This document shows positions 1 to 43,970 of a stretch of 43,970 nucleotides of DNA, in pieces. Origin of the DNA: a virus; IMG/VR virus record IMGVR_UViG_3300042569_002722, positions 1 through 43,970 of that record; one strand, given 5' to 3'. How positions within the stretch are numbered: the first letter of the stretch is position 1; the number at the start of each line of letters is the position of its first letter. The translations under genes and the position numbers were made by a program. Under the pieces are notes generated by a model. That model did not search any database, had not been told where the DNA came from, and saw only the letters and a program-made list of their open reading frames with translations.

Positions 1-127
1 GGACACTGCGCGCGACACCCGCCGCCAGGCTGCCCGCCAGCAGCTGGTGCACCTGCTCGCACAGCGCATCGTGGCCGAGCTGCTGGCCGGCCAAGACAGC
101 ACCCCGGAGACAACACCCCATGCCCCC
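1..127. repeat. Terminal direct repeat, left copy (circular assembly overlap)
   Basis: These 127 bases are identical to 43844-43970. The repeat starts inside a small ORF and ends just inside the recombinase gene, so genes read cleanly across the join. An exact length of 127 matches a common assembler k-mer, so it is best read as the overlap of a circular contig rather than a biological terminal redundancy. Confidence 0.95.
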
Positions 128-214
128 GAGCCCACCCGCCCCCACCGCGCCGCTGCGCGCGGCCCTGTACGCCCGGTACAGCACCGACAGGCAGCGCGAG
201 ACCTCGATCGCTGA
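2..214 (+). CDS. Small basic hypothetical protein, 3' part (starts at 43842 across the circle junction)
   Basis: Read across the join, a GTG at 43842 opens a 71-residue frame ending with TGA at 212-214. The first half (residues about 4-31) is an Arg/Gln/Leu-rich amphipathic helix with RRQAARQQL and IVAELLA. The second half is Pro/Arg-rich and overlaps the recombinase start by 95 bp in another frame. The GTG lies 2 bp after the stop of the upstream gene, which fits translational coupling. Function is not recognised. The overlapped C-terminal half may be only what the recombinase frame permits. Confidence 0.6.
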   Translation, partial: DTARDTRRQAARQQLVHLLAQRIVAELLAGQDSTPETTPHAPEPTRPHRAAARGPVRPVQHRQAARDLDR

Positions 215-1754
215 CCAGCTGCGCGAGGCGCATGCGCGCGCCCACGCCGAGGGCTGGGTGATCGTCGCCCAGCACAGCGACGAAGGCATCAGCGGCAGCG
301 TGCCCGTGGCGCTGCGCCCGGGCGGCAAGGCGCTGCTGGCCGACGCCCTGGCGGGCCGGTTCGACGTGCTGGTGGCCGAGGGCCTGGACCGGCTCAGCCG
401 CGAGATCGGCGAGGCCGAGACCATCACCAAGCGCCTGGAGCACCGCGGCATCCGCATCATCGGCACCGCCGATGGCTACGACAGCGAGGCGCGCGGCCGC
501 AAGGTCATGCGCATCGCGCGCGGCCTGGTGAACGAGCTTTACCTCGATGACCTGCGCGAGAAGACGCACCGCGGCCTGGCCGGGCAGTTCGACCGCGGCT
601 TCCACGTCGGCGGGGTGTGCTTTGGCTACCGCAGCCAGGCCACGGCCGACGGCCAGGGGCGTGAGCTGGTGGTCGACGAGACCCAGGCTGCCATCGTGCG
701 CCGCATCTTCGAGGAGTTCGCCGCTGGCCACAGCGGCCGCGGCATCGTGGCCAGGCTCAACGCCGAAGGCGCGCCCAGCCCACGCGGCGGCACCTGGGCG
801 GTGTCGGCACTGGTGGGCGACAGCAAGCGCGGCGCCGGGCTCTTGAACAACGAGCTCTACGCCGGCCGCATGGTGTGGAACCGCCGGCAGTGGCTCAAGG
901 ACCCCGAGACCGGCCGCCGCCGCTACGTGGACAGGCCGCAGGCCGAATGGCAGGTGCGCGAGGTGCCGCACCTGCGCATCGTCGAGCCCGAGCTCTGGAC
1001 GGCCGTGCGCGATCGGCAGCGCAACGGCCCAGCCCGAGGCACTCGCCGCGGCGGCGGTGCAGCCCCGCGCACGCTGTTCGCCGGCCTGCTGCGCTGCCCC
1101 AGCTGCGGCGGCCCGGTGGTGGCCATCGATGCGCGCCGCTATGGGTGCAACGTCAGCCACGACCGCGGCCAGGCGGTGTGCAGCATGCGCACGGGCTTCA
1201 AGCGCGCCGCGGTCGACGGCGCGCTGCTGGCCCTGGTGCGCGACGAGCTGCTCAGCCCTGCCGCGCTGGCCGAGCTGCACAAGGCCGTGCGGGCTGCGCT
1301 GGCCAGCGTGCGCCCTGCAGGCGACGCCGCGGCCACGCGCAGCCGCCTGGCGGCCCTGCAGGCCGAGATTGGCCGCCTGGTGGATGCCGTGGCCCAGCTG
1401 GGGCTCAGCGACGCGCTACGGGGCCGCCTGGCCGCGGCAGAGGCCGAGCAGGCTGCCCTGCAGCAGCGGCTGCAGCGCGCCAAGCCGACGCCCGAGCTGA
1501 GCACCGAGCAGGTGATGGCTGCCTACCGGCGCCAGATGCTCCAGCTGCAGCAGGCTCTCGAGGCCGATGCAGACCGCGATCGCACGCGCACGCTGCTGGC
1601 CGAGATCCTGGGCCCAGTGACAGTGCTGCGAGACGACGCCGGCGACTGGCTGGAAGTGAACGAGCCCGCCGCGCGTCTTGCGCTGGCGGGCTCGCCTCTG
1701 GAAGTGGTTGCGGGGGCCCGCAACTTCAACCGCAGGCGGATCCGAGTCGGCTAA
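120..1754 (+). CDS. Large serine recombinase (phage integrase)
   Basis: 544 residues. The N-terminal resolvase-type catalytic domain carries the motif LYARYST...Q, with Ser21 as probable nucleophile, and later the LDRLSRE segment near residue 90. A recombinase domain follows (about 165-300: GYR, IF..FA.G.S...I...LN). A zinc ribbon comes next (CPSCGG near 328, then YGC and VC), then a coiled coil (about 390-480). This is the usual order in large serine integrases, which join attP to attB without host factors and need a directionality factor for excision. A GGAG lies about 10 nt before the ATG. It is last or nearly last in the rightward early operon, so it should be silenced when that operon is repressed. 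Confidence 0.95.
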   Translation: MPPSPPAPTAPLRAALYARYSTDRQRETSIADQLREAHARAHAEGWVIVAQHSDEGISGSVPVALRPGGKALLADALAGRFDVLVAEGLDRLSREIGEAETITKRLEHRGIRIIGTADGYDSEARGRKVMRIARGLVNELYLDDLREKTHRGLAGQFDRGFHVGGVCFGYRSQATADGQGRELVVDETQAAIVRRIFEEFAAGHSGRGIVARLNAEGAPSPRGGTWAVSALVGDSKRGAGLLNNELYAGRMVWNRRQWLKDPETGRRRYVDRPQAEWQVREVPHLRIVEPELWTAVRDRQRNGPARGTRRGGGAAPRTLFAGLLRCPSCGGPVVAIDARRYGCNVSHDRGQAVCSMRTGFKRAAVDGALLALVRDELLSPAALAELHKAVRAALASVRPAGDAAATRSRLAALQAEIGRLVDAVAQLGLSDALRGRLAAAEAEQAALQQRLQRAKPTPELSTEQVMAAYRRQMLQLQQALEADADRDRTRTLLAEILGPVTVLRDDAGDWLEVNEPAARLALAGSPLEVVAGARNFNRRRIRVG

Positions 1755-4167: not shown

Positions 4168-4446
4168 TCAGACCACCCGCCCGATGGGGATGTCCACGGG
4201 CTCGACGTCTGGCGCCTGCGACTCCACCACCCCATCGCGCACGAAAGCGTTCTGGCCCACGGGCACGCTGCGGCCGCGCACGCGCAGCGTGCTGCCGGTC
4301 TGCAGCACTCCGTCAAAGGCCGCCACGGCCAGGCCGCTGGGCAGCTGCACAGTGCTGGTGTCGTCGCCGTGGTGGGCCACCACCCGCCCTACCAGCACGG
4401 GCGGGGCGGGCAGCAGCGCCTGCAAGCGGCGGAAGAGGTTGCTCAT
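4168..4446 (-). CDS. Small tail-associated protein, OB-fold-like
   Basis: 92 residues. After a short helix (MSNLFRRLQALLP), strand-like repeats follow (GRVVAHHGDDTSTVQLPSG, GSTLRVRGRSVPVG) as in small OB-fold hub or spike proteins. It starts 5 bp beyond the stop of the tail-tip gene, so it is likely part of the baseplate or tip. Family assignment is by pattern only. Confidence 0.7.
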   Translation of the reverse strand: MSNLFRRLQALLPAPPVLVGRVVAHHGDDTSTVQLPSGLAVAAFDGVLQTGSTLRVRGRSVPVGQNAFVRDGVVESQAPDVEPVDIPIGRVV

Positions 4447-4451
4447 CGTCG

Positions 4452-6914
4452 TCAGGCGTCAGGTGCGCGCACGTGAAGGTAGGAGGCGCCGGCAGGAAGT
4501 GCTGCCCGGAAACTCCACGAGATGCCGTCGCCGCTCGCGTACAGGTGGTGCGCTGTCGGCGCCGCGGTGCGCACGACGATCAGCAGGAACTCTGAGCCCG
4601 TCCAGATGGGCGACCAGCCGCTCGAGGCGCCGCTGATGCCAGTGCCCACGGTCCAGGTCAGCCCATCTGTGCTGTGGGCCACTGCTGCCGTGTCGGCCAG
4701 GCCCGAGACGAATCGCCCGGCGCCGTAGGCCAGCCCCAGCGAGTCTGCTGGCAAGCCTGCAGCGTCCCGGGTCCAGCTAGTCCCGTTGGTGCTGGTGGCC
4801 ACAGGCGCCGGCACGGTGGCCGCGGCGCCATGCGCCACGACAAGACGCCCGCCCCCCTCGGCGATGTGATGCCACGTGCCGGTGCCGATGGAGCGCGATG
4901 TCCACGACCCACTGGCCGCCGTGGGGCTGGTAAGCGCGAGGTTGAAGCCGGTCACCAGCCACAGCCCCAGCGCCTGGCTCCAGTGAGCTCCATAGAGCTT
5001 GGTTGCGATGGACGAGCCCCAGGTGGTGCCGTCGTCGCTGAAGTAGGCCCCCGCAGGGTTGCTGGGGGTGAAGTTGGCAATCAGCGCGCGGCCATCCGGC
5101 TTGCCGGCAAGGCCCGAGTACCCCGGGTACACGCTGGCGCCGCTGCTCTGGTTGACCGTGGCATCCGAGACGGCCGTCCAGTTGACGAGATCGGTGCTGT
5201 TCCAGACAAAGCTGCCGTGCGGTGGGTTGCCGCCGGGGCCGCCGCGCAGCATGGTGCCGCCGGCCGCCACGTAGCGGCTCCCAGCCTTGACCATGCGGCT
5301 GAGGCGCGATGCACCCAGGCCTGGCACGGTGGCCCAGGTGGCGCCGTTGTCGTTGCTGCGGTAGTGAGGCAGCGCGTTGTCGGCGCTGAGCAGGAAGATC
5401 GCGGGGCCGCTGGCCACCGAGGCCACCACCACGCTGAACTCGTCGCTGTCGGCGGTGCTGTCGATGGCGTCGCTGGCCCGCACGGCCAGAGCCGTGGTCT
5501 CGGGCGTGCCTGGGGCGGTGCCCACCAGGTGGCCCGTCTCGTCATCGAGCGTCAGCCAGGCAGGCAGGGTGCCTGAGCGCAGGCTGTACACCACCGGCGG
5601 CTCGCCCCCGGTGAAGTAGCCCGACAAGTCCACGTCGACGGCGCCGCCTGGGGCCACCTCGATGTCGGGGATGGGCCCGGTGAAGGTGAGCACGTCTGTG
5701 ATGGGCGGCGCCGCGGCGGTGCCGTCGACGAGCTGCGTGTGCCGCTCGAGCGTGAGCCCCAGCGTGGCATTGGGCAGCTGCACCTCCAGCTGCACGGCGG
5801 TCACCAGGCCCGGCCAGGCCGGCGTGTCGAGCACCTTCACCAGCCAGCCGGGCTCTGGCACCACGGCCACGCCGCCAACCTTGAGCACGGGCAGCGTGAT
5901 GCTGTGGATCTGCTGCTGGCCGCTGCGGCCCAGGATGGCCTGGCCGCGCTGCCGGGCGGCGATCAAGTCGGTTATGAGCACGTCACTGACCATCGGTGCC
6001 TGATGGGCGCCCGTGGTACCAGCCAGCCGCACCAGGCCAATGGCGCCCTGCTGCTGGCCTGCGACCACCACGCCGTCATAGGGGGGCTGGTCGTCGAGCT
6101 GGAAGCTCTCGCTCTCGACCACCGCCATGGGCAGCTCGAGCTCGGGCGCGGCCGTGCCCCATTCGTTGGGCATGAGCGGGTAGCGGGGCCGCACCGTCAT
6201 GCCATAGCCGGCACGCTGGCTCTGCAGCACGGCGCCGGCGGCCTCGGCCACGCGGCGCACCACGCCCAGCGGCGTGCCGCTGTAGCTGAAGACACCGGCG
6301 GGCACCGGCCAATCGTCAAGTTCCCAGAGCACCTCGAGGCCGGTGTACAGGTTCGCCGACGCGGCGATCTGCGCCGCGGTGGTGTCGCCCTCCACCGCCC
6401 ACGTCTGCTCACCCTGGTACGGCGCCCCAGCCACACAGGTCTGGCTGCGGCCTTCGATGGCCACCTCGGTCGATGGGAACTGCCGCGAGCGCGTGACCGA
6501 CTCGATCACGAACTCCCACACCGCGCCGTCGACGGTGACGCGGAGCCGTGGCGGCTGCGCGCCGGTGCTGAGCTTGGTGAAGAGGGCCGCCCCGCCGCTG
6601 GCGCGCAGCGTCCAGAAGATGCTGTCGCGGTCGGTGGAGATGGTCACCCGCTCCACGGGCAGCACGGTGTCGTCGCGCAGGTCGCGCACGTCGAGCGCGT
6701 GCACCAGGTTGTAGGCCGCGGCGGCCGGTAGGCTGAGGAGCGGGCTGGCGGAAGGCGCCGTCGGCGTGCCGCCGCCAGGCGGCGATGGCGCGGTGTAGGG
6801 GCCGCCAGTGCTCCAGACGGCCGAGAGCAGCCCCCAGGGCGTGACCACCGGCGCAGCCCACAAGGCGGCGCCCAGCCCCCAAGGGGTGGCCAGCGTCGCG
6901 GTGATCTGAGGCAT
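4452..6914 (-). CDS. Tail hub/tip protein fused to Ig-like domain and BNR-type propeller
   Basis: 820 residues with three parts. Residues about 60-390 look like a tail-hub protein (VERVTISTD..SIFWTLRASG, then a long beta-rich body). Residues about 410-495 are a putative Ig domain (GYFTGGEPPVVYSLRSGTLP, then LDDETGHLVGTAPGTPE). Residues about 500-820 contain at least six BNR/sialidase-like blades with the S.D.G..W pattern (YRSNDNGATW, YFSDDGTTWG, TSTNGTSWTR, HSTDGLTWTV, YASGDGISW). The propeller is probably the receptor- or glycan-binding module on the tail tip. It overlaps the upstream tail gene by one base. Confidence 0.85.
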   Translation of the reverse strand: MPQITATLATPWGLGAALWAAPVVTPWGLLSAVWSTGGPYTAPSPPGGGTPTAPSASPLLSLPAAAAYNLVHALDVRDLRDDTVLPVERVTISTDRDSIFWTLRASGGAALFTKLSTGAQPPRLRVTVDGAVWEFVIESVTRSRQFPSTEVAIEGRSQTCVAGAPYQGEQTWAVEGDTTAAQIAASANLYTGLEVLWELDDWPVPAGVFSYSGTPLGVVRRVAEAAGAVLQSQRAGYGMTVRPRYPLMPNEWGTAAPELELPMAVVESESFQLDDQPPYDGVVVAGQQQGAIGLVRLAGTTGAHQAPMVSDVLITDLIAARQRGQAILGRSGQQQIHSITLPVLKVGGVAVVPEPGWLVKVLDTPAWPGLVTAVQLEVQLPNATLGLTLERHTQLVDGTAAAPPITDVLTFTGPIPDIEVAPGGAVDVDLSGYFTGGEPPVVYSLRSGTLPAWLTLDDETGHLVGTAPGTPETTALAVRASDAIDSTADSDEFSVVVASVASGPAIFLLSADNALPHYRSNDNGATWATVPGLGASRLSRMVKAGSRYVAAGGTMLRGGPGGNPPHGSFVWNSTDLVNWTAVSDATVNQSSGASVYPGYSGLAGKPDGRALIANFTPSNPAGAYFSDDGTTWGSSIATKLYGAHWSQALGLWLVTGFNLALTSPTAASGSWTSRSIGTGTWHHIAEGGGRLVVAHGAAATVPAPVATSTNGTSWTRDAAGLPADSLGLAYGAGRFVSGLADTAAVAHSTDGLTWTVGTGISGASSGWSPIWTGSEFLLIVVRTAAPTAHHLYASGDGISWSFRAALPAGASYLHVRAPDA

Positions 6915-26766: not shown

Positions 26767-26789
26767 GCGCGGACGGGACCCCAAGAAAA

Positions 26790-26817
26790 AGGCCCCAGGG
26801 CTTGCGCCGAGGGGCCT
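26790..26817 (-). terminator. Intrinsic terminator inside the late operon
   Basis: On the minus strand AGGCCCC pairs with GGGGCCT, with an inner GGC/GCC pair block closing a GCAA tetraloop, and is followed by TTTTCTT. It lies 23 bp upstream of the ATG at 26766. There is no space for a promoter between them. Confidence 0.85.
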
Positions 26818-26998
26818 GAATCAGCATTCCTGCTGAGGAGACAACTGCTAGGCGGTCTTTCACGACCTACCTGAATTGAGGCGAATTTTGGGGCGATGTG
26901 TCTCATGGGAGCGAGCAGTTTTTTGTCTCGCGTGGGGGAGACATCGGGGAGCTTGACGAGAGGCGGCGCGGGGCTGTATTCGCGCAGCGGAGGCGGCG

Positions 26999-32340: not shown

Positions 32341-34842
32341 TCACGAAGCCTCCCCTTCGCCCACGGCCTTTCGGCCGAAGCGGGCCAGGTGCTTCTCGAA
32401 GTCGTCGATGCAGCCGCCCATCCACTCGCCCTCGGTCACGCCGTTGACCGGGCCTCGGCCGCGCGGTATCCAGCAGCGAACGGTGCGCCTCTCGGTCTGG
32501 CCCACGACCACGGCCACGGGCTTGTACCTGAGCGCGTCGGGCAGGCGATGCCCATTCGCATCACGCTCCACCGTCTCGGTCACGTGCCGCTCGACCGACC
32601 TGGTGAAGGTGGCCTGGTTGCCGATGTACCGCTCGTTCTCACCGTCAGCCCAGCGCCTGAAGAGCGTGAAGAGCTGCGTGGCACTGCAAGGGTGGACAGG
32701 GACGCCGAGGTACCCGCCCAGCCAGTCGTTCACGAACCGCTCAGCGGGCTTCAGGCCCATCTCGACGAGCGCCTCTTTGGCCTTCGTCATCAGCGGCTTC
32801 GTGTACTCGTTGAAGTCGCCCAGGTCCACGCCCTGCAGGTAGTGCATGAACTTGCCCACGCCGTCGGCGCGCAGGAACTCCGCCACGCGCAGGTACAGGC
32901 TCGGGCTCTCGGCCGCCGGCGTGTAAATGACCAGGTGGCGCCGATCGTCCTTCTCCAGCGCCACCGGCTGCAGCTCGTTCGACAGGAACACCACGTTCGC
33001 GTGGTTGCTCTCCCAGCGCACCTCCTGGTGCATGCCGCGAATGGGGATCTCGTCCTCGGTGATCACCCACTTGAGCTTGTTCTTCTGGTGGAAGAGCTCC
33101 TGGCGCGTCACCACCTCGTTGCCAATGAGCAGCAGCTTGCCGCTCATGTAGCCATTGAAGCGATCGTCGAGCTCGCTCTGGCCGACCATCTTTCCGTACT
33201 TGCCCAGGATGCGCCGGAAGGCGTCCCAGAACAGGTTCTTGCCCGTGCCCTGCGGCCCGTGGAACACCAGCGCGAAGCGGATCTTCGCGCCAGGCCGCTG
33301 CACGATCAGCGCGCACCAGCGCAGCACCTGCTGGTACACGGCCGCCACCTCCTCGTCGGTCTTGCCGCTCAGGCTGCACAGGTGCTGCAGCAGCTCGAGG
33401 ATGGGCGCCACATCGGCCTCGGTGCACGGCACCGGCTTCGTGGGCATGCCGCCCCACAGGTTGACGCAGCCCTCGGCCACCTCGATCCCGGGCTCGAAGA
33501 CGATCTGCTCAGGCTTCAGCAGCCGCCGCTCGGGGTGGCCGAGCCAGCTGTTCACGAAGGGGCTGCCAAAGAGCAGGCGCAGGTTCTTCACCTGCATAGT
33601 GGTGCGGTGCTCGCCGTCCCAAACCAGGTCGGTGCCGTACACCAGCGCGAAGCTCTTCAGCAGCCGCTGCAGCACGCCACCGCCCCCCTCCCCCCCTGGC
33701 GGCGCGTCGGCGCCGCCAGACCGGCCAGCCTTGCCGCGGCGCTTGGCCGGCGGCTCGTTCAGCGTGTACTCGTCGGGGGGCGGGGCTCCCTCTGCCGGTC
33801 CAGGTGCAGGCACCGGTGCGCCGCCGCTCGCGGCCAGGCGCATGCGTGGCTTCGCGGCCTGCACCTCCACCCCCAGCGCGGATGCCAGCCACAGCAGGGC
33901 ATCCTTCGGGCGCGCACATCCGGGGGCCCACTTCATGACGACGTCGATGGGCGACATGCCCAGCTCCTCGCCGAAGTCCATGATGCCCTCTGGCGTGATC
34001 TGCAGGTCTTCCTCGAGGTCGCGCCCCAGGTCCTTGCTGGTCACGCGGTAGCCGTTGCGCCAGGTGCGTGCCATCGGCAGCACGCGCGGCACCCAGCGGG
34101 CCAGGTCGGCATAGGCCGCCACGTTGACGCGGCGGAAATCGTCGCCCTGCTGGCGTGGGCTCTCGTGCCTGGCCATCGGCGCAGCAGCTGGTGCCGGACT
34201 CGGCGCGGCGGCCAGCTCGGGCCCGCGGCGCTCGGCCTTCGCCGCCTTCTTGCTGGCCTCGACGATCTCGCGCAGGTACGCCAGCGCCTCGGACTGCAGC
34301 GGCATCACCTCGGCCGCGCGCGACTCCAGCCGCGCACCCGTGCAGGTGAAGTAACGCCCGCCGCAGTACACCTCCACGCCGATCGGGTCGTGCTTGAAGC
34401 TGTCGGTGCTGCCGAGGGTGATGATGTGCACGCCCTTGCCCGAGGGGCTGAACTCGGTGTACGAGTCACAGGCCTGCATCACCGCCTCGTGGTGCTCCAG
34501 CGGCTGGCCGCCGGGCTCGGTCTTCCAGTCCAGGTCGATGCCCACCAGGCCGTCGCCGTCCAGGAACGCGAAGCCCACGCCGCTCATGGCCGGCATGCGG
34601 CGGAAGCGCTGCAGCGCCGCGTCCAGGCCCAGCAGGCGCTTGCGGTCCTTCGGGCTGCCCAGGTCGCCGAAGCGCTTGCCGCCGTCGCCGTAGTACGGCA
34701 CCTTCTGCAGGCCCTTGCGGCCTTCCACCTCTTCCAGCTTCCACAGCAGCCACTGCGCACGCTCGCGCATGGCCTGGGGCATGTTCGTGGCCAGGCGCTC
34801 AATGAGCGCCTCGCGCTCAGGGTTCGGGGTCGCTGCAGCCAT
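32341..34842 (-). CDS. Primase-polymerase fused to SF3-type helicase (NrS-1-like, DUF5906)
   Basis: 833 residues from ATG 34842 (a TTG lies directly before it). The N-terminal archaeo-eukaryotic primase part has GVGFAFLDGDGLVGIDLDWK (about 90-110) and FSPSGKGVHIITLG (about 133-146), as in the NrS-1 phage polymerase. A Pro/Ala-rich linker follows. The DUF5906 helicase has Walker A GPQGTGKN (about 525-532), then LLLIGNEV and VVFLSNE. It should prime and unwind phage DNA. ATGA overlap with the upstream zinc-finger gene. Confidence 0.88.
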   Translation of the reverse strand: MAAATPNPEREALIERLATNMPQAMRERAQWLLWKLEEVEGRKGLQKVPYYGDGGKRFGDLGSPKDRKRLLGLDAALQRFRRMPAMSGVGFAFLDGDGLVGIDLDWKTEPGGQPLEHHEAVMQACDSYTEFSPSGKGVHIITLGSTDSFKHDPIGVEVYCGGRYFTCTGARLESRAAEVMPLQSEALAYLREIVEASKKAAKAERRGPELAAAPSPAPAAAPMARHESPRQQGDDFRRVNVAAYADLARWVPRVLPMARTWRNGYRVTSKDLGRDLEEDLQITPEGIMDFGEELGMSPIDVVMKWAPGCARPKDALLWLASALGVEVQAAKPRMRLAASGGAPVPAPGPAEGAPPPDEYTLNEPPAKRRGKAGRSGGADAPPGGEGGGGVLQRLLKSFALVYGTDLVWDGEHRTTMQVKNLRLLFGSPFVNSWLGHPERRLLKPEQIVFEPGIEVAEGCVNLWGGMPTKPVPCTEADVAPILELLQHLCSLSGKTDEEVAAVYQQVLRWCALIVQRPGAKIRFALVFHGPQGTGKNLFWDAFRRILGKYGKMVGQSELDDRFNGYMSGKLLLIGNEVVTRQELFHQKNKLKWVITEDEIPIRGMHQEVRWESNHANVVFLSNELQPVALEKDDRRHLVIYTPAAESPSLYLRVAEFLRADGVGKFMHYLQGVDLGDFNEYTKPLMTKAKEALVEMGLKPAERFVNDWLGGYLGVPVHPCSATQLFTLFRRWADGENERYIGNQATFTRSVERHVTETVERDANGHRLPDALRYKPVAVVVGQTERRTVRCWIPRGRGPVNGVTEGEWMGGCIDDFEKHLARFGRKAVGEGEAS

Positions 34843-35111
34843 CAACGAGCCGCGCCTCCCTGCCTGGCGCGCACCCGCAGCCGGCGCTCGTGGTCGGCGC
34901 GGCAGTCGGGATCGCAGTACACGGCCAGCGGCAGGCAGCGGTCGCCGCAGTTCGCGCAGGTGCCGGGCTCCGCGCTCTCGGCCGCGGCCCGCTGGGCCTG
35001 GCTGCGCATCGCCAGCTCGCGAAACTCCTCCTCGCGCCGCGTGGCCATGTCGTCCACGCCGAGGCGCTCGTCAGGGTGCACGCCCTCAGGGGCCACCGAA
35101 GGTGCAGTCAC
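34842..35111 (-). CDS. Small zinc-finger protein
   Basis: 89 residues. A helical N-terminal half (DDMATRREEEFRELAMRSQA) is followed by CANCGDRCLPLAVYCDPDCR, a four-cysteine ribbon like DksA/TraR or DUF2116 proteins, and a basic end. It is translationally coupled at both ends: 4-bp overlap with the HTH gene and ATGA overlap with the primase. It may bind RNA polymerase or DNA; not shown. Confidence 0.75.
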   Translation of the reverse strand: MTAPSVAPEGVHPDERLGVDDMATRREEEFRELAMRSQAQRAAAESAEPGTCANCGDRCLPLAVYCDPDCRADHERRLRVRARQGGAAR

Positions 35112-35494
35112 CGCCCCACCCCCATCGGGTGGCCACCCAGAAGCAGGCGCTTCAGCGCGTCGCGCTCCTCCTCGGCCAGGCGCAGGCGGCGCTCGAGCTC
35201 GCTCTCCTGCCGGCGCAGGCTGCCGAGGTCATAGCCCCGCTGGTGCAGCTGCCACAGCACCGGCGCGTCGTTGCCGCAGGCGTCCATGAGCGCGCTCAGC
35301 TTCGGCCAGCAGACGCCCTCCTGGCCGCTCTCCCAGCGGCTGAGCTGGCCCTTGTCGCCCTTGATGGCGTGCACCACCTCCTTCGGCTCCAGGCGCGCTT
35401 CTTCGTAGCAGAACTTGATGGCCGCGCCTAGCGTGGGCCGGCGCACCAGGTCGCGCAGCGACACGTCGATCGGCAGCCGAAGTTGCGTGTTCAT
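35108..35494 (-). CDS. HTH transcriptional regulator with C-terminal coiled coil
   Basis: 128 residues. The HTH spans about 25-60 (LGAAIKFCYEEARLEPKEVV, then KGQLSRWESGQEG), followed by LSALMDACGNDAPVLWQLHQ and a coiled coil (ESELERRLRLAEEERDALKR). It heads the leftward replication operon. A long palindrome overlaps its start codon, which suggests it represses itself. A CII-like activator is an alternative. Confidence 0.75.
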   Translation of the reverse strand: MNTQLRLPIDVSLRDLVRRPTLGAAIKFCYEEARLEPKEVVHAIKGDKGQLSRWESGQEGVCWPKLSALMDACGNDAPVLWQLHQRGYDLGSLRRQESELERRLRLAEEERDALKRLLLGGHPMGVGR

Positions 35495-35530: not shown

Positions 35531-35660
35531 GGCAAGCAGCCGCACAGTGCGGCCATGGATGCAGACAGCATGATCAGCCTAGGTGGAGAGGTAGGGCGGG
35601 CGCCCTGCCCGGGTGGTTACGCTGGCGGTCCCCCGACACACCAGCCCCAGGAGGGCGCCC

Positions 35661-35906
35661 ATGAACCAGGACATCACGCTCAGCACGCGCGACACCATCG
35701 ACCTGATGGGCGCGTTCGCGTTCGCGCTGCAAGCCACCATGCCGGTGGCCCAACGGGTGCGCTTCAGGCAGACGCTGGAGCTCATCGAGCAGCAGGTCCT
35801 GCAGCAGGATCGCCCGGCTGTGGCGGCTGCACTGGCTCACATTGCAGCGACACTGCCTCGGGTCGAGAGGTCAGGCGATCCCGACACCAGCGAGCCCACG
35901 CACTAG
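35661..35906 (+). CDS. Small hypothetical protein opposite to its neighbours
   Basis: 81 residues with an excellent AGGAGGG ribosome site 6 bases before ATG 35661. It is helical (RDTIDLMGAFAFALQATMPV, RVRFRQTLELIEQQVLQQDR, PAVAAALAHIAATLP). It is read rightward between two leftward genes, so it must have its own promoter and may be expressed in lysogeny. No family recognised. Confidence 0.75.
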   Translation: MNQDITLSTRDTIDLMGAFAFALQATMPVAQRVRFRQTLELIEQQVLQQDRPAVAAALAHIAATLPRVERSGDPDTSEPTH

Positions 35907-35968
35907 CGAGCCGCACGCTCAGCTGGCGCGCCTGGCGCCGCTCGCGATATGCAGGGGTGACGCAGGCC

Positions 35969-36175
35969 TTACGCGGCATCGGCCACCTGCTGCTGGCTGC
36001 CACCTTGGTGCGCAAGGTTCAGGAAGAGGTCGGGCCGCTCGAGCTTCACTCGCGCAGGGATGCCGCGAACCTTCCAGTTCTGGACTCGCTGCACGCCTCC
36101 GGCCTTGGGAATGCGCAGCAGCTCGCAGACCTTGGCAGGCCCGCCCAGCTGGTCAATGAGGTCAGCGTCGGTCAT
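35969..36175 (-). CDS. Cro-like HTH protein, probably from a leaderless mRNA
   Basis: 68 residues. The pattern MTDADLIDQLGGPAKVCELL, then GGVQRVQNWKVRGIPARVKL is the YdaS/Cro-type HTH. It is read away from the S24 repressor with the operator between them. The -10 (TGTAAT, minus strand, 36187-36182) ends six bases before the ATG, so transcription should start at or next to the A of the start codon. It probably favours lytic growth. Confidence 0.82.
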   Translation of the reverse strand: MTDADLIDQLGGPAKVCELLRIPKAGGVQRVQNWKVRGIPARVKLERPDLFLNLAHQGGSQQQVADAA

Positions 36176-36181
36176 GCCGGG

Positions 36182-36211
36182 ATTACACACGGCGTTTATC
36201 GACGCTGTCAA
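36182..36211 (-). promoter_or_regulatory. Leftward early promoter with embedded operator
   Basis: Minus strand TTGACA (36211-36206), 18-bp spacer, TGTAAT (36187-36182). Half-sites TTACACACGGC (36183-36193) and, inverted, GTGCGTGTATCAA (36214-36226) cover both ends of the promoter. The core TAAACGC(C/T)GTGTGTAAT is nearly identical to that of the promoter at 36924-36952, so one repressor should control both. Confidence 0.8.
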
Positions 36212-36254
36212 CAGTGCGTGTATCAACGGCCTGTTTAGCTTCGGACAATGCCGC

Positions 36255-36908
36255 ATGGCCACGCCCCACCCGTCGTTCGAGCGCCTGCTGCACTGCGCCA
36301 GGGCCGCAACGGTCAATCGCGCCCCCGAACAGCGCGTGGTCGACGAGGCAGACCTTCAGCGCGTGCTGGCGTGGTCTCCGCAGAACCGCACCAACTACAA
36401 GAGCCGCGGGGTGTCAAAGCTGGCCGCGCTTGCTGCTGAGCATCAGCTCGGCTGCCCGGCAACCTACGTGTTAGGCGGCACCAACCCTCCCAACTGGATG
36501 AACCCCCAGCGCTTGGTCACGGGGGAGTTGCCCGCAGGCCACTCAGTGGCTCAGGATTTGAGCCAGTCACCGTTTGAAGCTGTGCCTCTGTTAGACAGGG
36601 AGCAGCTCTTGACCAACAAGACACCAGAACTATTCCGCTTTGCACTGCTTGATGACGCCATGGCCCCAGAAATGCCGGCCGGCACGGAGATCGTGTGGAC
36701 CACGCGCCGCCGTGTCGCACCTGGCCGCCTCATCCTGCTGAAGGACAGCCACGACCAACTGCACGTGCGTCAGTGCCATCAAGGGCAGGGGCCCGCGTCG
36801 TGGATTGCAACGCCGAACAACCCGGCCTATCGCAGCTTCACCAGCTCGGATGGCGACGTGTCGGTGCTCGCCGTCTTCAAGGGCCGCCTCGAACCTGACG
36901 ACGCCTAG
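36255..36908 (+). CDS. S24-type phage repressor lacking catalytic residues
   Basis: 217 residues. The N-terminal HTH is near 33-75 (ADLQRVLAWSPQNRTNYKSR, then VSKLAALAAEHQLGCPATYV). The C-terminal LexA-like domain starts near 107. The usual GDSM becomes LLDDAM (Ala135 where the nucleophile Ser should be) and the catalytic Lys is replaced (HVRQ, Arg172). It should therefore dimerise and bind DNA but not cut itself. ATG 36255 has no strong ribosome site. It lies between two matching promoter/operator modules, as cI does in lambda. Confidence 0.85.
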   Translation: MATPHPSFERLLHCARAATVNRAPEQRVVDEADLQRVLAWSPQNRTNYKSRGVSKLAALAAEHQLGCPATYVLGGTNPPNWMNPQRLVTGELPAGHSVAQDLSQSPFEAVPLLDREQLLTNKTPELFRFALLDDAMAPEMPAGTEIVWTTRRRVAPGRLILLKDSHDQLHVRQCHQGQGPASWIATPNNPAYRSFTSSDGDVSVLAVFKGRLEPDDA

Positions 36909-36923
36909 GAAGTACACGCCATG

Positions 36924-36952
36924 TTGACACACGGCTAAACGCTGTGTGTAAT
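36924..36952 (+). promoter_or_regulatory. Rightward early promoter with embedded operator
   Basis: TTGACA (36924-36929), 17-bp spacer, TGTAAT (36947-36952), a near-consensus sigma-70 promoter. TTGACACACGGC and GCTGTGTGTAA form an inverted operator that covers both -35 and -10, so bound repressor must block polymerase. Transcription would start near 36959, which rules out the in-frame ATG at 36951 and supports the one at 36981. Confidence 0.88.
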
Positions 36953-36980
36953 GCGCCCCGTCAACACGACGGAGCGCAAC

Positions 36981-37142
36981 ATGCCTCTCTTTCCCCGGGC
37001 CCCGAACCCGTACTACCTCACCCCTGAGGCACAGGCCGCGCTGAAGCGCCGCTCGGCCGAGATCCGCGCGCACCTGGCCCTGCGCCGTGCCCTGCGCCAG
37101 GCGCGCGACGCAGTGGCCCAGACCAAGCGCCCGCTGCCATGA
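36981..37142 (+). CDS. Small basic protein, first gene of the rightward early operon
   Basis: 53 residues from ATG 36981 with GGAG 7 bases upstream. The start MPLFPRAPNPYYLTPEAQAA is followed by an Arg-rich helix (ALKRRSAEIRAHLALRRALR). Likely nucleic-acid or protein binding; no family recognised. As the first gene after the repressible promoter it would be made earliest. Confidence 0.72.
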   Translation: MPLFPRAPNPYYLTPEAQAALKRRSAEIRAHLALRRALRQARDAVAQTKRPLP

Positions 37143-37375
37143 GCGCGGGCACCTCACCAGCTGCCACCGGCTGGGGCACAGCAGAGCAGTGCATCGAGTG
37201 GGCCATCCGCGCCCGCCATCTACGCCAGCGTGCCGCGGCCATCAAGACCGGGGCACCCACCGTGTTCACCAGCGCCGCGCACGCCGAGGCGCTGGCCCGC
37301 GGCCTGGAGTCGCGCGTGCGCATGGCCGCCGACGCCTTCATCGCCGAAGCCGCGCGCGCAGGCGGTGCCACGTGA
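37139..37375 (+). CDS. Small helical hypothetical protein
   Basis: 78 residues, ATGA overlap with the previous gene. Ala/Arg-rich helices (EQCIEWAIRARHLRQRAAAI, AAHAEALARGLESRVRMAAD). The operon position and coupling support it as a real gene. No motif points to a function. Confidence 0.7.
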   Translation: MSAGTSPAATGWGTAEQCIEWAIRARHLRQRAAAIKTGAPTVFTSAAHAEALARGLESRVRMAADAFIAEAARAGGAT

Positions 37376-38411: not shown

Positions 38412-40415
38412 ATGCAGCCCACCATCCAGCCCGAGTACCAGCTGACGCCCCTGTCGCTGTTCAGCCCCAGCCCCACCAACCCGCGCAGCCGCATCAGCCA
38501 GGCCGAGATCGAGAGCCTGGCCGCCAGCATCGAGCCGCACGGCGTGGTGCAGCCCGTGCTGGCCCGGCCCCGCCCCGACGCGCAGCCCGGCGAGCCGCCT
38601 CTCGAGCTGGTGGCAGGCCATCGGCGCTGGACGGCCACCAGCTGGCTCGAGGAGCGCGGCCGCAACCCGCACCAGGGCTGCATCCCGGCGCTGCGCCGCG
38701 AGCTCACCGATGCGCAGGTGCTCGCCCTGCAGCTGATCGAGAACATCCAGCGCGAAGACCTGCACCCCCTCGACGAGGCCGCGCACTACCGCCGCATGCG
38801 CGACGCCACCACCGGCGCGCTCAGCGTCGAAGAGATCGCCGCGCTGGGCAAGGTGAGCGTGTCGCGCGTGTACGAGCGGCTGTCGCTGCTGAGCCTGGTG
38901 CCCGCCGCGCGCGAGGCCTTCCTGGCCGGCCAGCTGACGCTGAAGACCGCGCTGCTGGTGGCCCGCATGCCCGCCGAGCAGCAGGCCGAGGTGACCGTGC
39001 ACCTGGCCGACTGGGGCGGCGAGCCCATGACGCCGAAGGCCGCCGCCACCTTCATCCGGGAGCGCTACATGCTGCGCCTGGCGCAGGCCCCCTTCGACCC
39101 GGCCGACGCCACCCTGCTGCCCGCCGCCGGCGCCTGCGGTGCGTGCCCCAAGCGCACCGGCGCGAACCCGCAGCTCTTCGGCGACATCAGCGACGCCGAC
39201 ACCTGCACCGACACCGTCTGCTTCGGCAACAAGAAGGCAGCGCAGCGCTCGCGCCTGGTCGACGAGCTGCGCGCCACCGGCTACCGCGTGCTGCAAGACG
39301 ACGAGGCGCGCGACGTGTGCACGCCCGACGGCCGCGACCTGAAGCCCCAGCTGGTGAGCCTGGAGGCCAGCGTGCCGCCCCACCTGGGCGACCACCGGCT
39401 AAAGGTGTCCGAGGTGCTCGACCAGGCGCGCGTACCCACCAGCGAGGTGCTGGCCATCGACCACCCCAACGCCGCGGCGCCCGTGGTGGCCGTGGGAGTG
39501 CACGTGCTCGAGGGCGCGCTGCGCCGCATCAAGGCGCACCGGGAGCAGCTGGACAAGCAGGCCGCCAAGGCCCCGCCGCCGGCGCCGAAGCCGGCACCTG
39601 CACCAGCTCCTGCCCAGCCCCCTGCCGCGGCCGCGCAAGCCCCGGCCGAGCCAGCTGCCAGCCCTGGTGCGGAAGCCGACGCCGCGCGCGAGGCCTACGT
39701 GCGCGAGCTACTGGCCTTCAAGGCCGAGCCGGCCTGGTACGCGAAGAAGAACGCGCCCGACCTGCTGGGCCGCATCACGCGGCAGCAGGAGCGCCGTGCG
39801 TTCCGCATCCTCGCAGCAGCCGAGGTCGGTGCGCACATGCAACGCGACGGCGCTGAGGGCCTGCCGCCCTTCAAGCTGGCTCAGATGCTGTGCGTGCTGC
39901 TGAGCTGGGATGACGGCGAGCTCACGTTCGCCCAGGCAGCCTACCTGGCGGGAGTGCAGTATCCGTTCACTGAACCGAAGGGCTTCCGCAGCAGCTTCGC
40001 CCAGCACCAGGCCTGGATGTGGGAGCTGACCGACGAGGACGCCGCGCGCCTGGCCATGGTGCTGCTGGCGTCGCAAGAGCATCGCGGCGACGAGTCGCCG
40101 ATGGACGAGTTCACCCCGACCGTGCTGGCCGGCCTCGACATCCCCCAGGCGGGCCTGCTGGCCACTGCGCAGAGCGTGGTGCACGAGGTCATCCAGCTCG
40201 GCGCCGTCGAGCACGGCAAGCCCGCCGAGGCCAAGCCCAAGGCGGCCGCGAAGAAGCCCGCGAAGACCCCCGCGAAGCTGCCCTACCGCTACCGCAACCC
40301 GCTCACCGGCGACACGTGGACGGGCCGCGGCCTTCAGCCCAAGTGGCTGAAGGTGGCCCTGGAGGGCGGCGCCAAGCTGGCCGACTTCGACATGCACGCC
40401 GGGGGTGGCCAGTGA
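38412..40415 (+). CDS. ParB/RepB/Spo0J-like protein with C-terminal H-NS-type domain
   Basis: 667 residues. The ParB core has NPRSR (23-27), ELVAGHRRW (65-73), QLIENIQREDLHPLDEA (107-123) and an HTH (about 139-165). A Cys cluster follows (GACPKRTG...DTCTDTVC), as in ParB proteins of mobile elements, then a Pro/Ala linker and a conserved middle (PAWYAKKNAPDLLGRITRQQ). The end, after a Lys/Pro/Ala linker, is YRYRNPLTGDTWTGRGLQPK plus WL...G..LADF (about 624-662), the DNA-binding fold of H-NS proteins. It may combine ParB-type DNA sliding or nuclease action with H-NS-type binding. Confidence 0.88.
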   Translation: MQPTIQPEYQLTPLSLFSPSPTNPRSRISQAEIESLAASIEPHGVVQPVLARPRPDAQPGEPPLELVAGHRRWTATSWLEERGRNPHQGCIPALRRELTDAQVLALQLIENIQREDLHPLDEAAHYRRMRDATTGALSVEEIAALGKVSVSRVYERLSLLSLVPAAREAFLAGQLTLKTALLVARMPAEQQAEVTVHLADWGGEPMTPKAAATFIRERYMLRLAQAPFDPADATLLPAAGACGACPKRTGANPQLFGDISDADTCTDTVCFGNKKAAQRSRLVDELRATGYRVLQDDEARDVCTPDGRDLKPQLVSLEASVPPHLGDHRLKVSEVLDQARVPTSEVLAIDHPNAAAPVVAVGVHVLEGALRRIKAHREQLDKQAAKAPPPAPKPAPAPAPAQPPAAAAQAPAEPAASPGAEADAAREAYVRELLAFKAEPAWYAKKNAPDLLGRITRQQERRAFRILAAAEVGAHMQRDGAEGLPPFKLAQMLCVLLSWDDGELTFAQAAYLAGVQYPFTEPKGFRSSFAQHQAWMWELTDEDAARLAMVLLASQEHRGDESPMDEFTPTVLAGLDIPQAGLLATAQSVVHEVIQLGAVEHGKPAEAKPKAAAKKPAKTPAKLPYRYRNPLTGDTWTGRGLQPKWLKVALEGGAKLADFDMHAGGGQ

Positions 40416-41157: not shown

Positions 41158-41752
41158 GGCGCACAACGAGGGCAAAGTGTTGCCCGCCGAGCCGGTGGCG
41201 CCGACCATCGACCCGCACCGAGAGCACTGGGGCGCCATCGCCGAGGCCAGTGAGGTCATCGCCGCCAGCCCCAACTGTGGGCCGGCCGAGGCGCGCGCGC
41301 TGTGCGATGCGTTGGACCGTCTGACGGCTGCCGAGCTTGGCGAAAGCACAACGGACGAGCGCGTGGCGTTTCTGCTGGGCATGACGCGAGAGGCTCAAGC
41401 CTTTGCTGCCAAGTACGCCGATGAAGTCGTTGAGCTGCGCGCCGCCCTTGCGTCCTCGCCGTCGCTGACGGCTGCCGCGAGAGACGTGCTGGGCGAACGG
41501 CACCGCCAGGTCGAGGTTGAGGGCTGGACGCCAGAGCATGACGACGAGCACGGCGATGGGGATCTGGCAGCAGCGGCTGCCTGCTACTCGCTTAACAAGA
41601 CGCAGATTGGCGCGTACATCCTTTGGCCCTGGAACAGCGGCTGGTGGAAGCCACGTGACACACGCAGCAACCTGGTGCGCGCTGCCGCTCTGCTGCTGGC
41701 CGAGATCGAGCGGCTTGACCGTGCCGCCCCGCAGACCGAGAGAGGCGCGTGA
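41150..41752 (+). CDS. Conserved phage early protein
   Basis: 200 residues with a GTG start overlapping the previous gene by 8 bp. The N-terminal 110 residues are Ala/Glu-rich helices. The C-terminal part has ERHRQVEVEGWTPEHDDEHG...LAAAAACYSL...LWPWNSGWWKP...NLVRAAALLLAEIERLDRA, a module common in phage and prophage proteins near the integrase side. The acidic GWTPEHDDEH and WKP-D motifs suggest metal-dependent or nucleotide-binding chemistry, but no reaction is assigned. Confidence 0.72.
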   Translation: MAEAHNEGKVLPAEPVAPTIDPHREHWGAIAEASEVIAASPNCGPAEARALCDALDRLTAAELGESTTDERVAFLLGMTREAQAFAAKYADEVVELRAALASSPSLTAAARDVLGERHRQVEVEGWTPEHDDEHGDGDLAAAAACYSLNKTQIGAYILWPWNSGWWKPRDTRSNLVRAAALLLAEIERLDRAAPQTERGA

Positions 41753-41886
41753 TGGTCGCAATTCGTCAATTCCTTCGTCGGCTGCTGTGTCGCCACCAAC
41801 GTGTACGGCTTGTCGCCATCGAGTGGGATGGCACTTCCGTGCACAGGTGCGACGACTGCGGCAAGCTGTTTCGCAGGGGGCTCTGA
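41752..41886 (+). CDS. Tiny zinc-ribbon-like protein
   Basis: 44 residues, below many gene-finder limits. It is basic at the start (RQFLRRLLCRHQRVRL), then HRCDDCGKLFRR with a CxxC pair; Cys13, His15 and the CxxC could bind zinc. It is coupled to both neighbours by one-base overlaps (TGATG), which supports translation. Confidence 0.75.
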   Translation: MVAIRQFLRRLLCRHQRVRLVAIEWDGTSVHRCDDCGKLFRRGL

Positions 41887-42902
41887 TGGCCGAGAACACC
41901 GCCATCGAGTGGGCCGACCACACCTTCAACCCGTGGGTCGGCTGCACCAAGGTCAGCCCGGGCTGCGACCACTGCTATGCCGAGAGCTGGGCCAGGCGCG
42001 CGGGCAAGGCCGCGGGCGTCACTTGGGGCGGCGATCGCCGCCGGACGAGCGACGAGAACTGGGAGAAGCCGCTGCGCTGGAACGCCGAGGCCGAGCGCGA
42101 GGGCCGGCGCTTCCGGGTGTTCTGCGCGAGCCTGGCCGACGTGTTCGACAACCAGGTACCGGCCGAGTGGCGTGAAGACCTGTTCGACTTGATCGCAAAC
42201 ACGCCGCACCTCGACTGGTTGCTGCTTACGAAGCGAATCGGCAACGCCGAGAAGTTGATGCGTGCGGCACTCAAGGACGACGGCCCGGACTGGCCTTGGG
42301 ACAACCTCTGGCTCGGCGTCACCGTCGTCAACCAGGCCGAGGCCGACCGCGACGTGCCGAAGCTGCTGGCCGTGCAGGCGCGCGTGCGGTTCCTCAGCAT
42401 CGAGCCGATGCTGGGGCCGATCGACCTGACCCGAGTGCATGAGCGTCGGCCCGGCGGTATCAGCGCCTGGCATTGCCTGCAGGGCTACTGCCAGAGGCAC
42501 TTTCCGCGCAAGCAGTGCGGATGCGATCGCCAGGAACCAACGATCAACTGGGTCATCTGCGGCGGCGAAAGCGGCCCCGGCGCGCGGCCGATGCACCCAG
42601 ACTGGGCCCGAAGCCTGCGCGACCAGTGTGCCGCGGCCGGCGTGCCCTTCCTGTTCAAGCAGTGGGGCGAGTGGGCTGAGCACGACGCCGGGCCTCCGCC
42701 GCACGCGGTGATGCACATGGACAGCGAGACCGGCCAAGCCTCCGCGAGTGCATGCGATGGCTTCATCAGCAAAGCCGGCGAGTTCGTTCGCGACATGGAT
42801 GACGCGACCACAGACGAGCCCTACCGCGGCATGGTGCGCGTGGGCAAGAAGGCCGCCGGCCGCCAGCTCGACGGCCGCACCCACGACGAGTTCCCCGCAT
42901 GA
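41886..42902 (+). CDS. Phage Gp37/Gp68 (DUF5131) family protein, CxxCY motif
   Basis: 338 residues. The start has the family signature IEWADHTFNPWVGCTKVSPG followed by CDHCYAE; the cysteines resemble a radical-SAM cluster site. Then come FRVFCASLADVFD, LDWLLLTKRI, NLWLGVTVVNQAEADR, RVRFLSIEPMLGP and CGGESGPGARPMHPDWARSL with FLFKQWGEW. All are conserved in this family. Its reaction is not established; a role in nucleic-acid modification or repair is possible. Coupled to the ASCH-domain gene that follows. Confidence 0.9.
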   Translation: MAENTAIEWADHTFNPWVGCTKVSPGCDHCYAESWARRAGKAAGVTWGGDRRRTSDENWEKPLRWNAEAEREGRRFRVFCASLADVFDNQVPAEWREDLFDLIANTPHLDWLLLTKRIGNAEKLMRAALKDDGPDWPWDNLWLGVTVVNQAEADRDVPKLLAVQARVRFLSIEPMLGPIDLTRVHERRPGGISAWHCLQGYCQRHFPRKQCGCDRQEPTINWVICGGESGPGARPMHPDWARSLRDQCAAAGVPFLFKQWGEWAEHDAGPPPHAVMHMDSETGQASASACDGFISKAGEFVRDMDDATTDEPYRGMVRVGKKAAGRQLDGRTHDEFPA

Positions 42903-43339
42903 AGGCCCTCAGCATCCGCCAGCCCTGGGCCTGGCTCGTCGTCAACGGCCACAAGCCCGTCGAGAACCGCACCTGGCCCACCAGCCACCGCGGCGACACG
43001 CTCATCCACGCCGCCCAGGCGTTCGACAGCGACGGCCTGCTCTGGGTGCTGCACAACTTCCCTGAGCTGCGCGGCCAGCTGCCCCAGCAGTACGAGATGG
43101 GCGGCATCGTCGGCCGCGCGCAGCTGATCGCCTGCACGCAGCAGCACCCCTCGCGGTGGTTCGTCGGCCCCTACGGCTTCGTGATGCACGACCCCAAGCC
43201 CATGCCGCTGGTCCGGCACCGCGGCCAGCTCAGCTTCTTCGAGGTGCCGATGTCGCCGGCCCTGCACGCGGCGCTGCAGCGCGCCGGCGCCGCGCCCGCT
43301 GCCGAGGCCGAGGCTGCCGGCCAGAACAGGCTCTTCTGA
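42899..43339 (+). CDS. ASCH-domain protein
   Basis: 146 residues. Starts MKALSIRQPWAWLVVNGHKP, then VENRTW....HRGDTLIHAAQ and GGIVGRAQLIAC, ending the domain with PYGFVMHDP. This is the ASCH fold, a PUA-like RNA- or nucleotide-binding domain (some members act as amidohydrolases on modified nucleosides). An Ala-rich tail follows. ATGA-coupled with the DUF5131 gene upstream, so the two probably act together. Confidence 0.9.
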   Translation: MKALSIRQPWAWLVVNGHKPVENRTWPTSHRGDTLIHAAQAFDSDGLLWVLHNFPELRGQLPQQYEMGGIVGRAQLIACTQQHPSRWFVGPYGFVMHDPKPMPLVRHRGQLSFFEVPMSPALHAALQRAGAAPAAEAEAAGQNRLF

Positions 43340-43841: not shown

Positions 43842-43970
43842 GTGGACACTGCGCGCGACACCCGCCGCCAGGCTGCCCGCCAGCAGCTGGTGCACCTGCT
43901 CGCACAGCGCATCGTGGCCGAGCTGCTGGCCGGCCAAGACAGCACCCCGGAGACAACACCCCATGCCCCC
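43842..43970 (+). CDS. Small basic hypothetical protein, 5' part (continues at 2-214)
   Basis: GTG 43842 opens two bases after the previous stop. The 43 codons shown here encode a helix rich in Arg, Gln and Leu and run off the window end in frame. Across the circular join the frame continues to TGA at 212-214, overlapping the recombinase start. Confidence 0.6.
   Translation, partial: MDTARDTRRQAARQQLVHLLAQRIVAELLAGQDSTPETTPHAP
43844..43970. repeat. Terminal direct repeat, right copy
   Basis: Identical to 1-127. Joining the ends restores one continuous operon: helical protein gene, small basic ORF, serine recombinase. Confidence 0.95.

Follow-up and report, generated by a model that had tools for sequence, protein, structure and literature searches.

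The induction of prophages is commonly taken to mean cleavage of the repressor driven by RecA. Repressors that are not cleaved are already known, and the interest of the protein described here lies in a clade-wide signature and a natural domain swap. In the accessible text of Silpe et al. (PMC10432266), 210 of 271 linear-plasmid-like phage repressors are putatively non-autoproteolytic, missing features of the catalytic site, with N15 CB non-proteolytic in a gel assay and VP882 cI autoproteolytic. In our calibration alignment VP882 gp59, taken as the phage cI by annotation and sequence, has the canonical motifs GDSM, FKQL, and PVLSWVQAG. N15 CB (NP_046933) has Gln in both catalytic columns and Thr-Gly in place of Ala-Gly. 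The accessible parts of three further papers describe Gifsy GfoR and GtgR, non-cleavable prophage repressors with known LexA-controlled antirepressors (PMC3121763), phage 186 CI, which is released by the LexA-controlled Tum (PMC7708051), and a gonococcal repressor without the Ala-Gly motif (PMC12186493).

The window, by which we mean the whole 43,970-nucleotide stretch of viral DNA that was analysed, carries an exact 127-bp direct terminal repeat (1–127 = 43844–43970), a sign that the record probably represents a whole genome assembled as a circle of ~43.8 kb. A serine-type integrase gene (120–1754, plus strand; phrog_95, E 3e-81; phrog_125 DNA invertase, E 2e-17) suggests a temperate phage. 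On the minus strand, cro is followed by the gene for an HTH protein of the cro-led operon (35108–35494; PF13560, E 7e-4, below cut-off). Genes for a DksA-type zinc finger and a primase come next, and those for terminase, portal, tape measure, and tail proteins lie beyond them. Elsewhere, positions 38412–40415 (plus strand) encode an unusual 667-amino acid ParB/H-NS fusion, which has relatives in 41 loci by phmmer; a ParB N-terminal domain (E 5e-14) and a ParB HTH are joined to the DNA-binding domain of H-NS (E 2e-11) at the C terminus. A DUF5131 gene (E 7e-96; 41517–42902) adjoins an ASCH-domain gene (42899–43339), and a sub-threshold match to Rfam RF02278, a Betaproteobacteria toxic small RNA, lies at 26783–26843 on the minus strand (30.4 bits versus a cut-off of 50, E 0.027).

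Catalytic positions and fold of the repressor

The frame at 36255–36908 (plus strand) is open throughout and encodes 217 residues, assigned by translation, Pfam, profile, and structure to a CI-like repressor with an N-terminal HTH and a C-terminal domain that is S24-like but catalytically dead. Ala135 is encoded by GCC (36657–36659) in the motif L-D-D-A-M, and Arg172 (codon CGT, 36768–36770) lies in H-V-R-Q. In the alignment with a profile of S24-like repressors taken from related phages, Ala135 occupies the column of the Ser of 'GdSM' and Arg172 that of the Lys of 'tvK', confirming the preliminary description, which had read both S24 catalytic residues as replaced and had proposed alignment with S24 repressors as the check. 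Neither the profile nor the MAFFT columns contain another Ser/Lys pair, and a displaced dyad was rejected. The stretch Asp133-Asp134-Ala135 (36651–36659) takes the place of the canonical Gly-x-Ser. Where many Ser-Lys relatives have P-L-I-S-Y/W-V-Q/R-A-G, the window repressor has PLLDREQLL (residues 111–119, 36585–36611), such that the scissile Ala-Gly aligns with Leu118-Leu119, the P-x6-AG context is absent, and the cleavage-loop segment is ~20 residues shorter. Owing to the replacements of Ser by Ala, Lys by Arg, and Gly by Asp at position −2, together with the loss of Ala-Gly and the shorter cleavage-loop segment, RecA filaments should not trigger self-cleavage, and on the basis of its sequence RecA-driven cleavage of this repressor is very unlikely.

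On its own, Pfam PF00717 gives the C-terminal domain a weak, sub-threshold match (E 0.014, 15.5 bits versus a gathering cut-off of 23.3); a six-frame scan with PF00717 gave no match. For the window repressor Pfam returned no HTH match, NCBIfam nothing useful, and a PDB sequence search chance matches only. The AlphaFold2 model, built from 24 aligned sequences, has a mean pLDDT of 87.9, with residues 111–210 in blocks of 94–97. In VIA-align, residues 122–217 superimpose on the C-terminal domain of lambda CI (1kca) with Z 12.0 and rmsd 3.2 over 93 aligned residues; LexA and UmuD' match the same domain at Z ~11, and Foldseek pairs it with 1f39 at E 1e-5. Residues 6–76 match the HTH of P22 c2 (Z 6.1) and likewise that of 434 (Z ~6), and the repressor also matches 186 CI (2fkd, Z 7.4). 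These fold matches, combined with the replaced catalytic columns, point to a genuine CI/LexA-fold repressor without the dyad. In the model the S24 fold of the C-terminal domain is retained, and dimerization through this domain is probably still kept.

When compared with lambda CI, P22 c2, and LexA, both domain folds are alike, but the window protein lacks the Ser-Lys dyad and the Ala-Gly site. N15 CB resembles it in having a CI-like HTH and an S24-like domain with both catalytic columns replaced and Ala-Gly lost, and N15 also has a divergent Cro, with CB operators annotated to either side of the CB gene. In contrast to the window protein, N15 CB has Gln/Gln rather than Ala/Arg and keeps Gly at −2 and at P1', with 14% identity, and an SOS-controlled antirepressor is known for N15 from the title of a reference in PMC10432266. 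Phage 186 CI is likewise a two-domain protein with an S24-like fold, and MAFFT places Gly at its nucleophile and Arg in its Lys column, a residue matching that is tentative as the S24 profile does not find 186 CI. Unlike phage 186 with its LexA-controlled Tum, the window yielded no LexA box of E. coli type. The Gifsy repressors share non-cleavability with the window repressor but form a 136-amino acid class with no C-terminal S24 domain, according to the accessible text of PMC3121763.

Relatives, domain origin, and the dead-S24 clade

Direct search with the whole protein found no relatives in phages or plasmids, nor did a single-protein scan of viral contigs. Relatives were instead reached through the neighborhood of the primase/helicase-like protein (32341–34845, minus strand; profile matches), and the primase scan plus two annotated phages gave 152 loci. 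Among the ORFs of these loci phmmer ranks L080 best (96 bits), followed by L102, L018 (a Rubrivivax pictus locus with the dead motif as in the window), L013, L108, L121, L012, and L086. Close relatives of the window phage are found in Rubrivivax and other betaproteobacterial MAGs. The catalytic substitutions recur in open-frame relatives with 21–42% identity to the window repressor, indicating that it is not a lone mutant, a chance result, or an error. A profile of the degenerate C-terminal domain (E ≤ 1e-9), run on three genome samples around the Rubrivivax pictus genome, matched 9 of 399 genomes at family level, 10 of 399 at order level, and 3 of 369 at class level, with the center genome included in each count, and Arg stands in the Lys column in nine of the ten places from the family sample (L162 read directly).

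The two halves of the repressor have different relatives. By phmmer, residues 1–82 match L013, a Methylibium rhizosphaerae prophage (E 5e-9), and L169 (E 2e-6), and no member of the dead-S24 clade; the HTH domain proper (residues 5–76, 36267–36482) is thus of the L013 type. Residues 95–217 match L080 (E 4e-24) and also L159, L160, L162, L018, L108, and others, with L013 at E 0.05. L013 shares with the window the HTH type, the Cro, and the operator family flanking the repressor gene, but its repressor has intact GDSM, FKKL, and PLISWVRAG and matches PF00717 at E 6e-23, and it would be expected to be cleavable. Between the two halves, the segment PPNWMNPQ (residues 78–85, 36486–36509) follows the L013-like HTH and resembles KPTGWMDQQ, which ends the other HTH type, that of L080, as expected at a fusion joint, and is probably a fusion scar. 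The window repressor is therefore read as a probable recombinant of a cleavable L013-type immunity module (HTH, Cro, and operators) with a dead-S24 C-terminal domain. The sibling phages L001 and L011 have flanking genes in common with the window, but their repressors are short and lack an S24 domain; among nine sibling short repressors, chosen by eye, Pfam gave some HTH match (E ≤ 0.1) in seven and an S24 match in none.

A first set of S24-like domains, 65 alignment rows merged to 51 distinct domains, contains the catalytic pairs Ser/Lys (27), Ser/Arg (12), Ala/Arg (7), and Gly/Arg (2), with one each of Asp/Arg, Tyr/Arg, and Ser/Ser, proportions that are not population frequencies because the profile used to collect the set had degenerate proteins as its seed. 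The Ser/Ser case (L170) is a misaligned F-R-K row that by eye is Ser/Arg; L170 and L024 were assigned by eye, as the automatic Lys column was misaligned. Loss of Ser with Lys kept occurs in none of the 51. At position −2 from the nucleophile, Gly is present in all 27 Ser-Lys proteins and Asp in 20 of the 24 others. A second set comprised 73 distinct ORFs in 84 loci, viral repressors fitting an expression that demanded Gly at −2 and Ser, so that the only relation it can test is that of Lys/Arg to the cleavage site. Over both sets, P-x6-[AC]G is found in 81 of 97 Ser-Lys sequences versus 0 of 28 Arg sequences; the first set contributes 11 of 27 versus 0 of 25 (L162 added by motif, for this count only) and the second 70 of 70 versus 0 of 3. 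The 16 of 97 Ser-Lys sequences without P-x6-AG have other S24 layouts, and some [AC]G dipeptide lies 24–60 residues upstream in 6 of the 24 non-Ser-Lys proteins. As the rows are related, these counts do not represent independent events.

On the tree the window repressor pairs with L080 (99/82) inside a supported clade of 13 (99/98), in which Arg replaces Lys and Asp occupies −2 in all 13, the nucleophile position holds Ala or Ser and once Gly, and P-x6-Ala-Gly is absent; an inner clade of six (97/82) has Ala at the nucleophile throughout. Lys/Arg requires five changes on the tree, the starred branches forcing three for the Ser-Lys group, and the independent-pairs test of Lys to Arg against Gly to Asp has just three pairs on starred branches. 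L194, which lies near the Ser-Lys repressors, keeps Gly and Ser yet has Arg, and Ala-Leu in place of Ala-Gly. This intermediate state suggests that Lys to Arg and loss of the cleavage site came before Gly to Asp, with Ser to Ala last. Full-text literature searches, which covered few subscription papers, returned no description of the Asp/Arg/no-Ala-Gly signature or of the dead-S24 clade.

Related changes also appear outside this clade. The repressor of L017 (4399–5112, Ramlibacter) has Gly/Arg for Ser/Lys within an otherwise Ser-Lys branch, a separate double loss. L006 encodes two adjacent HTH proteins (4299–5069 and 5300–6046) with degenerate S24-like C termini, the second with Asp/Arg in the catalytic columns. 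L173 and L176 encode proteins of 139–153 amino acids consisting of the S24-like domain only, with DDYM or DDSM and Arg in the Lys column, and the signature is thus found beyond two-domain repressors.

Cro, operators, and the downstream promoter

Divergently from the repressor gene lies a gene for a Cro-like protein of 68 amino acids (35969–36175, minus strand; phrog_8008, E 7e-18), which shares 65% identity across 52 residues with the Cro adjoining the intact S24 repressor of L013 and also matches the Cro of L056. The gap between cro and the repressor gene can be aligned to that of L013 (GATTACACACGGCGTTTATC versus GATTAAACATAGCGTTTATC) and contains the predicted operator-like sequence TACACACGGCGTTTA (36184–36198, plus strand), which aligns with TAAACATAGCGTTTA of L013. 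A second predicted copy, TACACACAGCGTTTA (36936–36950, minus strand), is positioned 3' of the repressor gene within the dyad ACACACGGC-TAAAC-GCTGTGTGT (36927–36949). The L013 motif TAAACATNNCGTTTA occurs in its gap and 3' of its repressor, with four matches versus 0.01 expected, an optimistic expectation as the motifs were read from the very sites, and the window motif TACACACRGCGTTTA is distributed in the same way. The window motif was itself read from the two predicted operators, which match it exactly, and 4 of 100 shuffles also yield two matches at ≤3 mismatches. A putative sigma70-like promoter, TTGACA-N17-TGTAAT (36924–36952, plus strand; one mismatch), has the operator-like dyad in its spacer. 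A promoter and terminator scan of 35900–37200 at the default rule gave nothing; the looser hexamer pattern gave this promoter, the only match in the window at ≤3 mismatches, where about one at three mismatches is expected by chance. Because the downstream dyad lies in the 17-bp spacer, two early promoters, one on each flank of the repressor gene, should be under the control of the repressor or of Cro. Before the small ORFs opposite the cro-led operon, a conserved stretch (GYAGG..TNQP.EGAH in one frame) is found at 35580–35661, and it is present more than once in L007 (5665–6901).

The repressor would bind TACACAC(A/G)GCGTTTA twice, once between cro and its own gene and once within the spacer of the strong promoter just 3' of that gene. 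Given these two operator positions, it would silence two early operons, comparable to lambda CI at OR and OL and N15 CB at its two flanking operators. The C-terminal domain would retain the S24 fold and probably dimerize, with the protease dead and RecA filaments providing no trigger. Release from lysogeny would then most likely depend on inactivation of the repressor by a protein bound to it, either an antirepressor of an unrecognized family or a prevailing Cro.

Release from lysogeny

The preliminary description had argued that the repressor should not self-cleave and that induction by DNA damage must therefore work in another way. Its first part stands: both nucleophile and general base have gone, as has the scissile Ala-Gly, and these losses are common to an old clade. 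Its second part took DNA-damage induction of the prophage for granted, and the searches gave neither a LexA box nor an ANT or Bro-N domain. The window contains no exact CTGT-N8-ACAG, and one-mismatch sites number 9 versus 15.9 expected, fewer than chance, both for a consensus of E. coli type from which the host LexA box may differ; CTGTATATATATACAG at ≤3 mismatches is also absent from the window. The search for ANT and Bro-N among the window proteins covers known families only. When the neighborhoods of the window and 13 dead-S24 loci were clustered together with those of 20 Ser-Lys loci, no family of genes combined presence in the window with occurrence in more than two dead-S24 loci and in none of the Ser-Lys loci. 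One family with no assigned function, phrog_20828, is found in four dead-S24 loci and in none of the 20 Ser-Lys loci, but the window lacks it. Possible candidates for release are a takeover by Cro, a non-SOS signal, and an antirepressor from a family not yet recognized.

These searches bear directly on whether the prophage responds to DNA damage at all. Inactivation by a LexA-controlled antirepressor, which would make the prophage SOS-inducible as in 186, N15, and Gifsy, finds support in the fold match to 186 CI (2fkd, Z 7.4), in the LexA control of Tum, and in the association of non-cleavage with SOS-controlled antirepressors in Gifsy and N15, as given in the accessible text of PMC7708051, PMC3121763, and PMC10432266; with no exact LexA box, one-mismatch sites below chance, and no ANT or Bro-N domain, we regard it as unlikely. 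The same observations, made in a record closed by a 127-bp terminal repeat, favor a repressor unconnected with DNA damage, with lysogeny ended by a non-SOS signal specific to the phage or the host, or for the most part by spontaneous loss of repression against Cro, and the siblings L001 and L011 also have repressors without an S24 domain. However, an antirepressor could be missed because most small phage genes have no known function, as would a host LexA box of different consensus, and this explanation, a serious contender, falls somewhat short of an even chance.

Two further explanations concern the repressor itself. The nearest upstream Ala-Gly, A94-G95, lies 41 residues before Ala135, and an Ala-Gly at −40 to −42 is shared with L080, L018, and L165, which might allow cleavage in trans by another S24 protein of the host or a co-resident prophage. 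No P-x6-AG context surrounds this dipeptide, which lies in a linker of low confidence (pLDDT <50 at residues 90–97) and is absent from the clade members L108, L158, L159, L160, L102, L012, and L086, so that such cleavage is highly improbable. That a recent inactivating mutation or a sequencing error struck an otherwise cleavable repressor is hardly credible, given three to four coordinated changes common to a deep clade, and an error or recent pseudogene was rejected on these grounds. Taken as a whole, we consider it quite probable that the gene encodes a CI-type lysogeny repressor with a dead S24 protease, likely recombined from L013-type and dead-S24 parts, acting at flanking operators and released by another factor.

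The wider proposal is more tentative, and we hold it at rather less than even likelihood: that the signature of Asp at −2, Arg, no scissile Ala-Gly, and later Ser to Ala includes a probable candidate ion pair of Asp with Arg at the former active site, as might join Asp133 and Arg172 in the window repressor, that this pocket serves as a docking site for an inactivator, and that the signature predicts non-SOS-inducible prophages. A clade-wide, coordinated loss of catalysis with the fold kept would provide a sequence rule for prophages that should ignore the RecA-cleavage route. The window and L013 repressors form a natural experiment in which a similar immunity module is joined to a dead or a live protease domain, and the conserved dead pocket raises the question of its present role. 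If true, the signature would forecast from sequence which prophages are not SOS-inducible.
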